Positions 17,142-19,040 of a stretch of 36,811 nt of DNA are shown here, one piece after another (within the stretch, counting starts at the first letter, position 1; each line of letters begins with the position of its first letter). The notes beneath the pieces are model-generated. The model was not told the DNA's origin, did not search any database, and saw only the letters and a program-made list of their open reading frames with translations. Source of the DNA: Acidimicrobiales bacterium. GTDB lineage: Bacteria; Actinomycetota; Acidimicrobiia; Acidimicrobiales; SZUA-35. Where the stretch lies: assembly GCA_020629695.1 (NCBI GenBank), contig JAHDCV010000021.1, forward strand, positions 23,923 to 60,733, read 5' to 3'. The translations under genes were made by a program, and so were the position numbers.

Positions 17142-18261
17142 GCGCCGCGATCCGAGCGGCGTCCGGATGCCCGTCGTCGAGATGGGCGAGGCGGCCGGCC
17201 ACCCAGGTCGCGACGACCCGTGTCCCGGGCCGGGCTTCGGGATCCCACACGACGACGTCGGCTCGACGGCCGGCTTCCAGACGGCCACGGTCGGCGAGGC
17301 CGAGCAACCGGGCCGGCGTCTCGGTCATGGCGGCGACGAGGTCGCCGAAGGTCCCGGAACCGTCGTCGCTTCGGTCGGCGAGCACCCGATCCAACATCGC
17401 CGTCGCTCCGGCCAGGGTCCCGTCGTCGAGGTGGGCGCCGGTCACGGCCGTCCCCGGCACGCCTGCGGACGCGACGGCGTCAGAGACGATCGCGACCCGC
17501 CCGGACGCGGCGCGCAATGCCAACCGGATCGTGTCGAGATGGGTGTGGACGCCGTCGGCGATCAGGCCGACGGTGAGTCGGTCGTCGGTGAGCGCGACCC
17601 CGATCGGACCGGGATCGCGATGATGGAACCCCCGCATCGCGTTCCCGAGATGGGTCACCATCGACGCACCGGCGTCAACGGCTTCGGTGGTGGCGACGGT
17701 GTCGGCGTCGGTGTGGCCGATCGAGACGACGACGTCGTCGGCCCGCAGTGTCTCGATCGCCCCGAGCGCACCGTTCAGTTCCGGGGCGAGGGTGACCAGG
17801 GCGACCCCGTCGGCTCGGCGCCACTCCCCGACCAGGTCGGGGTCGATCTCACGCCGCCAGGTCGCCGGATGCGCCCCGAGGCGTTTCTCCGACAGGAACG
17901 GTCCTTCCAGGTGCCAACCGACGGGATCGGCCCGGGGTCGCTCCGAAGGTGCGTGCATCGCGCCGCGCCACGCCGCCAGCGCGGCGGCGAGTCGATCGGT
18001 CGGTCCGGTGATCAGCGTCGGGCACCAGGTCGTGACACCGACGGACGGCAGGCGCTCGGCGATGTGGCCGAGCCCGTCGGGGTCGCGTTGGAGGTCGACA
18101 CCGAACGCACCGTTCAACTGGAGATCGACGAACCCCGGGAGGAACCGCAGGCCGTCGAAACCCTCCGTCGGCGCCCGACCGAGTCGGCCCGTGTCCGGGC
18201 CGAGGAGCGGTCCGACGAGCTCGACGCTGACGCCGACACCGTCGGTGACCGCGAGGTTCAG
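17125..18261 (-). CDS. nagA: N-acetylglucosamine-6-phosphate deacetylase, probable CTG start
   Basis: NagA removes the acetyl group from GlcNAc-6-phosphate in amino sugar and cell-wall recycling. Family blocks are PGFVDLQLNGAFG, WHLEGPFLSEKRLGAH (metal-binding Glu), VVSIGHTDADT and MVTHLGNAMRGFHHRDPG (His ligands), and AIVSDAVASAG (catalytic Asp). The PGFVDLQLNG block must be inside the protein, yet no in-frame ATG or GTG precedes it; the first usual start, a TTG at 18117, falls within this block. In frame 48 codons upstream is CTG at 18261, overlapping the flavodoxin stop as CTGA, the same geometry as an ATGA coupling. Starting there gives 378 residues, the normal NagA size. Function is firm; the start is inference. 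Confidence 0.85.
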   Translation of the reverse strand: MNLAVTDGVGVSVELVGPLLGPDTGRLGRAPTEGFDGLRFLPGFVDLQLNGAFGVDLQRDPDGLGHIAERLPSVGVTTWCPTLITGPTDRLAAALAAWRGAMHAPSERPRADPVGWHLEGPFLSEKRLGAHPATWRREIDPDLVGEWRRADGVALVTLAPELNGALGAIETLRADDVVVSIGHTDADTVATTEAVDAGASMVTHLGNAMRGFHHRDPGPIGVALTDDRLTVGLIADGVHTHLDTIRLALRAASGRVAIVSDAVASAGVPGTAVTGAHLDDGTLAGATAMLDRVLADRSDDGSGTFGDLVAAMTETPARLLGLADRGRLEAGRRADVVVWDPEARPGTRVVATWVAGRLAHLDDGHPDAARIAALSPAG

Positions 18262-18683
18262 CTCGACTCCATGGCACCCATGAGGCGACCCACGAGCTCC
18301 TCGGCGCCTTCTCGCAGCTCGGTGCGCTTGATCGCGTAGCCGCCGATCACGTCACCGCCGCGCTTGGTGATGATCTTGTCGAACTTGCTGAGCGTCTTGC
18401 CGGGGTCGTGGGCGTAGGTGCAGAAGATGGCCGTCTTCTTGCCGTCGATCACGGGCATCTTCAGGAAGTTCATCTCACCGGCCGGGCCCATGCCGAACAG
18501 GAAGAGGCCGTGGGTCCACGTGCCGATGATCAGCAGGTCGGCGTCGGACACGGCCTGCAGGTCGACCTGGGTCGTGGGCGACGCCGAGGCCGTCACGCCG
18601 TGGGCCTCGAGCGCTTCGACGATGGCCTGGGCCGCTCGTGCGGTGTTGCCCGTCTTCGATTCGTAGATGACCGCTGCTCGCAT
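18258..18683 (-). CDS. Flavodoxin-like protein
   Basis: Flavodoxin-fold protein of 141 residues, probably FMN-binding. The N-terminal VIYESKTGNTARAAQAI is the phosphate-binding loop. LLIIGTWTHGLFLFGMGPAG and AIFCTYAHDPGKTL mark the later loops that surround the isoalloxazine ring. It could carry electrons or act as a flavodoxin/nitric-oxide-synthase domain-like partner; the partner is unknown. The ATG at 18683 has AGGA 7-10 bases upstream. It is co-oriented with nagA, whose likely CTG start overlaps this stop. It is divergent from the selenoprotein gene, with 81 bases between the two starts. Confidence 0.85.
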   Translation of the reverse strand: MRAAVIYESKTGNTARAAQAIVEALEAHGVTASASPTTQVDLQAVSDADLLIIGTWTHGLFLFGMGPAGEMNFLKMPVIDGKKTAIFCTYAHDPGKTLSKFDKIITKRGGDVIGGYAIKRTELREGAEELVGRLMGAMESS

Positions 18684-18764: not shown

Positions 18765-19040
18765 ATGACCGATCACCGCTACCGGATCTCGATCACCTAC
18801 TGCGTGCCTTGAAACTACTCGGAGCGCGCCGTGAGCGCGACGACCGAGCTGCTGAGCAACTATCAGCACGTCATCGAGGACCTCACCCTCGTGACCGGGG
18901 GGAAGGGTGTGTTCGACATCGTCGTCGACGGCACCACGATCTATTCGAAGCACGAGACGGGGCGTCACATCGCCGACGGCGAGGCGCTGCAGCTGTTCAC
19001 CGACCTCGTCGGACCCGACGTTCCCCGCTACGGCACCTGA
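18765..19040 (+). CDS. SelW/SelT/SelH-type (Rdx) selenoprotein, UGA = Sec16
   Basis: Small thioredoxin-like Rdx protein of 91 residues if the TGA at 18810-18812 is read as selenocysteine. The N-terminal half is MTDHRYRISITYCVP, then Sec, then NYSERAVSATTELLSNYQ. This places Cys13 and Sec16 in the CxxU redox motif directly after the first beta strand, as in SelW-family proteins. Downstream, VTGGKGVFDIVVDGTTIYSK and HIADGEALQLFTDLVGP are the remaining family blocks and stay in the same frame. A hairpin resembling a bacterial SECIS lies just after the UGA. Without readthrough the products would be a 15-residue peptide and a headless 70-residue fragment from the GTG at 18831. The role is probably thiol redox; substrates are unknown. 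Standard gene callers would miss or truncate it. Confidence 0.85.
18818..18848 (+). promoter_or_regulatory. Candidate bacterial SECIS hairpin
   Basis: The lower stem is CTCGG (18818-18822) with CCGAG (18844-18848). The upper stem is CGCGC (18825-18829) with GCGCG (18835-18839). The apical loop is CGTGA, containing the GU typically needed for SelB binding. The loop begins 17 bases after the UGA, within the range described for bacterial SECIS elements. Confidence 0.65.

Follow-up and report, generated by a model that had tools for sequence, protein, structure and literature searches.

A conserved hairpin after the in-frame UGA of an acidimicrobial selW gene is very probably a bacterial SECIS element

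The window, that is, the whole stretch of DNA that was analysed (36,811 nucleotides from an Acidimicrobiales bacterium), carries on its forward strand a selenoprotein gene of the SelW/Rdx family (18765–19040). It encodes 91 residues with selenocysteine (Sec) at position 16 and ends with the stop codon TGA at 19038–19040. The Sec codon of the CxxU motif is an in-frame UGA (codon 16, 18810–18812, forward strand), and with TGA translated as U the N-terminus reads MTDHRYRISITYCVPU. The protein exceeds the cut-offs of two family models, Pfam Rdx (61.4 bits vs 22.6) and NCBIfam TIGR02174 CXXU_selWTH (45.0 bits vs 34.2); the gene has the Rdx domain with CxxU expected of a SelW/Rdx selenoprotein. SelW-like proteins with CxxU are a listed family of bacterial selenoproteins in the covered sections of PMC13188914, PMC2398784 and PMC9312934. 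The window gene shares with this family (SELENOW-like, Rdx PF10262) the domain, the CxxU motif and the in-frame TGA, and differs in nothing essential. Its nearest named relative, 85% identical, comes from a metagenome-assembled genome of an Acidimicrobiales bacterium. Judging by the family, the protein would have a redox role. A SpoU methylase gene lies downstream, and a flavodoxin-domain gene (18258–18683, reverse strand), a possible redox neighbour, is divergent from selW.

selW is absent from the standard list of open reading frames because its frame ends at the UGA. Gene finders halt at such codons, and hence the gene would be overlooked or truncated. The absence from the list would also suit a pseudogene whose UGA is a true stop codon or a sequencing error. 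However, TGA occupies the aligned CxxU position in all 120 homologues that were placed (the window sequence, 10 from the homologue search and 109 from genomes of the order), and the protein is conserved on both sides of it. Within the order all 112 SelW matches, found in 111 of 397 genomes, have the in-frame TGA. The Sec-decoding set selA, selB, selC and selD is complete in the genome of the window: tRNA-Sec (67.2 bits, cut-off 47), SelB (263.1 bits, cut-off 242.25) and SelA (400.0 bits, cut-off 267.9) share one contig, other than that of the window, and SelD (351.1 bits, cut-off 125) has an in-frame TGA of its own. SelA is present in 106 of the 111 genomes with SelW vs 141 of the 286 other genomes of the order (Fisher test, 1.4e-20); the five SelW genomes without a SelA match are 73–93% complete. 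Given the shared TGA, the complete machinery and the strong association with SelA, the probability of a pseudogene is negligible.

Five nucleotides after the UGA begins a structure that the first-pass annotation had described as two stacked stems. On the forward strand, the outer stem pairs CUCGG (18818–18822) with CCGAG (18844–18848), and the inner stem pairs CGCGC (18825–18829) with GCGCG (18835–18839) around the apical loop CGUGA (18830–18834), the start of which is 17 nt downstream of the UGA. The letters, the pairings, the GU-containing loop and the spacing were all exactly as described, and the whole hairpin lies, as had been said, inside the coding sequence (selW, 18765–19040, forward strand). 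Folded alone, positions 18818–18848 form this hairpin with an energy of −15.5 kcal/mol, and the inner stem-loop alone has −6.9 kcal/mol. For the 61-nt segment 18795–18855, which includes upstream sequence, a different structure is preferred, with an energy that does not stand out (z −1.27). At gathering thresholds Rfam gave no match in the window, and ARAGORN found no tRNA there.

The bSECIS model, as set out in the legend of Fig. 2 and the other covered parts of PMC13188914, has a loop of 3–9 nt, an upper stem of 4–16 bp, a G as first or second base of the loop, with G or U after it in most cases, a distance of 16–37 nt from the UGA to the loop, and a minimum free energy of at most −7.5 kcal/mol; the first and last loop bases pair in most members, but this is not obligatory. 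With its 5-nt loop, 5-bp stem, G followed by U and 17-nt spacing, the window hairpin agrees with the published rules on these points, which bears out the earlier assertion that it fits the general rules for bacterial SECIS elements. It differs from most members of the published model in that C and A, at the two ends of its loop, form no pair. The energy limit lies between the values for the conserved stem-loop and for the hairpin with the outer stem (−6.9 and −15.5), the stretch to be folded being left unspecified in the covered parts of the model.

Such agreement is common by chance. The two strands of the window together contain 670 TGA triplets. A hairpin obeying a generic rule (spacing 16–37, loop 3–9 with G as first or second base, no fewer than 5 perfect pairs) follows 50% of them, although only 3 of the 670 (0.45%) are followed by one with the exact geometry seen here (a 5-nt loop at 17 nt and a stem of 5 bp or more). 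Since half of the TGAs in this G+C-rich window are followed by a rule-conforming hairpin, the hairpin as such means little. A fold test against synonymous codons gave p 0.12 for the local hairpin of the window and p 0.033 for the wider region; this test is a weak one when applied to sequences singly, 27% of the 70 reaching p<=0.05. The single sequence barely exceeds chance, and therefore relatives were required and the significance comes from comparative data rather than from the fold of one sequence. The chance level, together with the conservation of the surrounding protein, speaks for the hairpin being a by-product of a conserved protein and a high G+C content, with some other signal directing any recoding.

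For the codon and stem tests, L027 (dropped by hand) and L129 (N) were left out, as were L028–L030, which have no residue aligned to the UGA. Among the 112 matches of the order, the fragment G144 was left out and G010 (L188) was used only in the type and tree counts. Collapsing of duplicates gave 116 sequences, from which 70 representatives with less than 80% nucleotide identity were chosen. In the null model, codons were permuted within a column among sequences sharing the amino acid, so that every protein remained unchanged (500 shuffles). Both the codon and the shuffle tests treat the sequences as independent of the tree.

Among the representatives, 90.3% of the inner-stem cells are paired vs 85.8% in the null (sd 0.6), and the covariation is 0.308 vs 0.234; none of the 500 shuffles reaches either value. 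The same holds for pairing in the 116 sequences (88.1% vs 83.7%, 0/500). Of the individual inner pairs, three (the first, third and fourth) lie above the null; the second (16-28) does not rise above it, and the fifth scarcely varies. RNAalifold, applied to 64 type-A representatives (the type of the window, see below), predicts the five inner pairs only. One coupling can be followed directly (codons are numbered from the UGA): Ser+8 is encoded by AGC in 79 of 82 cases and by AGT in three, and these three are the sole sequences with Thr+6 (ACC), so that G-C is replaced by A-U. If the two codons were independent, the chance of this would be 1.1e-5; the best tree places three separate changes, of which the well-supported branches show one.

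The outer stem behaves differently. Its pairing is at the level of the codon null both in the 70 representatives (54.6% vs 54.5%, 268 of 500 shuffles as high) and in the 116 sequences (55.5% vs 54.6%, 72 of 500), and it was rejected as part of the element. A functional element requiring both stacked stems would profit from the stabilisation of the window hairpin by the outer stem (−15.5 vs −6.9 kcal/mol), but the outermost pair is retained in only 21% and the fifth in 26% of the representatives, and the consensus fold omits this stem; we consider such a requirement improbable. In the sequences compared, the outer stem is a feature of the window that few relatives share. Hence the two stacked stems are true of the window but not of the conserved element, and the compensatory changes that the first-pass annotation had proposed to look for are present, beyond the protein-preserving null, in the inner stem alone. 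Among the relatives with the Sec UGA, structure is thus conserved beyond the protein constraint in the inner stem and not in the outer one.

The expected retention of the hairpin together with the UGA was seen in 139 of 154 Sec rows (redundant rows included). The remaining 15, which fail the rule of four pairs out of five, are L117 and 14 members of the family f35, and those of f35 fold with a one-nucleotide bulge. The loop GU is, as anticipated, retained in nearly all rows; this proves little alone, since GU also begins the conserved Val codon.

Codon use in the 70 representatives was compared with the use for the same amino acids at other sites of the gene, the sequences being taken as independent. 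Deviations are found at codons −3 to −1, +2 to +9 and +12, with little at the remaining positions. Ala+6 is GCC in 65 of 66 cases, Val+7 is GTG in 63 of 70 (25 expected), and Ser+8 is AGC in 45 and AGT in three, never TCN. The bias at Ser+8 alone could be historical, as two steps separate TCN from AGN and Ser+3 has the opposite preference (TCN in 59 of 59), but the residue at +8 also varies between Ser, Arg and Gly, and the second and third codon positions are GC in 102 of 115 sequences. Further, five-codon windows sliding along the gene (43 in total) were compared with their synonymous versions. A strong folding excess (−2.1 kcal/mol, p 8e-11) occurs only at codons +5 to +9. The windows at +4 and +6, which overlap this one, come next (−0.6 kcal/mol), and at +2, +3, +7 and +8 folding is weaker than expectation (+0.4 to +0.6). 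Apart from the stem, in the codons beside the UGA (window positions 18807–18818 and relatives), Pro−1 is CCT in 34 of 63 cases (11.8 expected), and Tyr+2 is TAT in 52 of 70 (16.5 expected).

A by-product of protein conservation and base composition should not show these features: the shuffles preserving the proteins never attain the observed pairing or covariation (0/500), the frozen codons lie mainly at +5 to +9 and right around the UGA, and none of the other windows has a comparable folding excess. As far as sequence comparison goes, the shuffle, codon and folding tests have already largely refuted the by-product explanation, which we regard as very improbable. The protein-preserving null reveals selection on the RNA itself. 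It also delimits the core to 15 nt and corrects the two-stem drawing, so that a guess made from one sequence is now a tested element.

Homologues with Cys in place of Sec were used as a control. Nine were found in the phylum sample, at 31–44% identity; the hairpin rule is obeyed in one of nine, vs 139 of the 154 Sec rows. When the GU condition is ignored, five of nine Cys rows have at least four pairs. As the Cys homologues are few and distant and more than half of them pair without that condition, this control was given little weight.

A second gene of the same genome offers an independent comparison. Thirty SelD loci were fetched; 23 are of the Sec type, three of the Cys type, and four (L195, L209, L215, L217) were not placed by motif. 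All 23 Sec-type selD genes of the order have, after the UGA, a hairpin with the loop [C/G]GUN[G/C]. The bases flanking GUN are G-C in 10, C-G in 9 and unpaired in 4 of the 23, and the swaps arise through His/Val and Gln/Leu exchanges. In the selD of the window's genome (L061) the loop is CGUGU, nearly identical to CGUGA of selW, and in both genes the stem directly flanks the loop. In selD, however, the distance from the UGA to the loop is 32 nt, and a further hairpin lies between them. This tandem arrangement, the second hairpin having the GUN loop, is seen in Sec-type SelD loci (L061, L189–L216), and the first hairpin may shorten the distance from the UGA to the GUN hairpin. The Cys-type loci L192, L200 and L210 have no hairpin like those of the 23 Sec-type genes, but three sequences are too few to weigh. 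selW and selD, two unrelated genes, are presumably read by one SelB.

A known element of this kind, the SECIS of Escherichia coli fdhF, has the loop GGUCU and a bulged U. The window hairpin resembles it in the GU within a 5-nt loop and in a similar distance from the UGA, and differs in the loop sequence (CGUGA) and in having no conserved bulged U in the stem. We consider it very likely that the 5-bp hairpin with the loop CGUGA is the bacterial SECIS of selW, directing Sec at the UGA; as such, the window element belongs to an already known kind. The hairpin, the gene family, the Sec machinery, the selection on RNA beyond the protein and the similar loop in selD are shown by the present data, and from them we infer binding by SelB and incorporation of Sec at selW. 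During translation of selW, SelB carrying Sec-tRNA-Sec would bind the hairpin at the mRNA entry side of the ribosome and deliver Sec to the UGA, 17 nt before the loop; the product would be a SelW/Rdx-family redox protein with CxxU. The core would comprise the inner stem and the xGUxx loop, and the outer stem would be incidental or merely a local aid.

Two forms of the hairpin occur in actinobacterial selW. In type A, to which the window belongs, Ala-Val-Ser/Arg/Gly is encoded by GCC GTG NGC and the loop, 17 nt after the UGA, is mostly CGUGA (CGTGA in 84 of 115 rows; two of the 115 have CGCCA and fit the type poorly). In type B, Ala-Val-Gly-Leu is encoded by GCC GTC GGT CTG (identical in 33 of 36 rows), and the hairpin CCGUC-GGUCU-G[A/G]CGG uses the same codons shifted 4 nt further from the UGA, with the loop at 21 nt. 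The type-B loop is identical to that of E. coli fdhF. Type B was found in ten sequences of the order (L121, L127, L128, L131, L133–L135, L138–L140) and in the majority of Sec homologues from other parts of the phylum (including L148, L150–L158). A tree built with the hairpin codons excluded (72 columns, 160 rows) implies seven switches between A and B in its best version, at least two of them forced by well-supported branches. Only 14 of 157 branches are well supported, most forks being open because 72 columns serve 160 rows. Paired changes on the tree have the same direction in nearly all random pairings, with too few well-supported branches for a sign test. We moderately favour the view that the two registers are mutually exclusive, that the RNA dictates residues +7 to +9, and that a 4-nt shift of the SECIS has taken place on more than one occasion among the lineages. 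The literature covered, which includes few subscription journals, yielded no description of a two-register SECIS in selW or of the GGUCU type there. The presence of both registers in one family amounts to a natural experiment, with regard both to the features that SelB recognises and to the influence of an RNA element on the protein in whose coding sequence it lies.

Several minor observations concern these types. TAT at Tyr+2 is found in 92 of 115 type-A rows and 5 of 36 type-B rows; as a bulged-U signal it was rejected, its position mismatching the E. coli bulge. The Cys homologue L159 (G431), with the motif CWEC, has CGTC-GACCT-GACG in the type-B register, possibly a SECIS remnant.

In 12 of the 15 f35 SelW genes, all from genus g45, the motif is UxxU (TGA GTT CCT TGA; L075, L078, L090, L098, L099, L105, L107, L109, L111, L114, L115, L116), so that two UGAs 9 nt apart precede one hairpin. 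SelW with UxxU is known from amphioxus and an alga according to the covered part of PMC7539508, whereas the prokaryotic tables covered list SelW solely as CxxU and give UxxU for other families only; the f35 genes differ from bacterial SelW-like proteins in this respect. An extra Cys soon after the SK motif is present in all 12 UxxU genes vs 6 of 106 other distinct rows, two of these six being without the SK motif.
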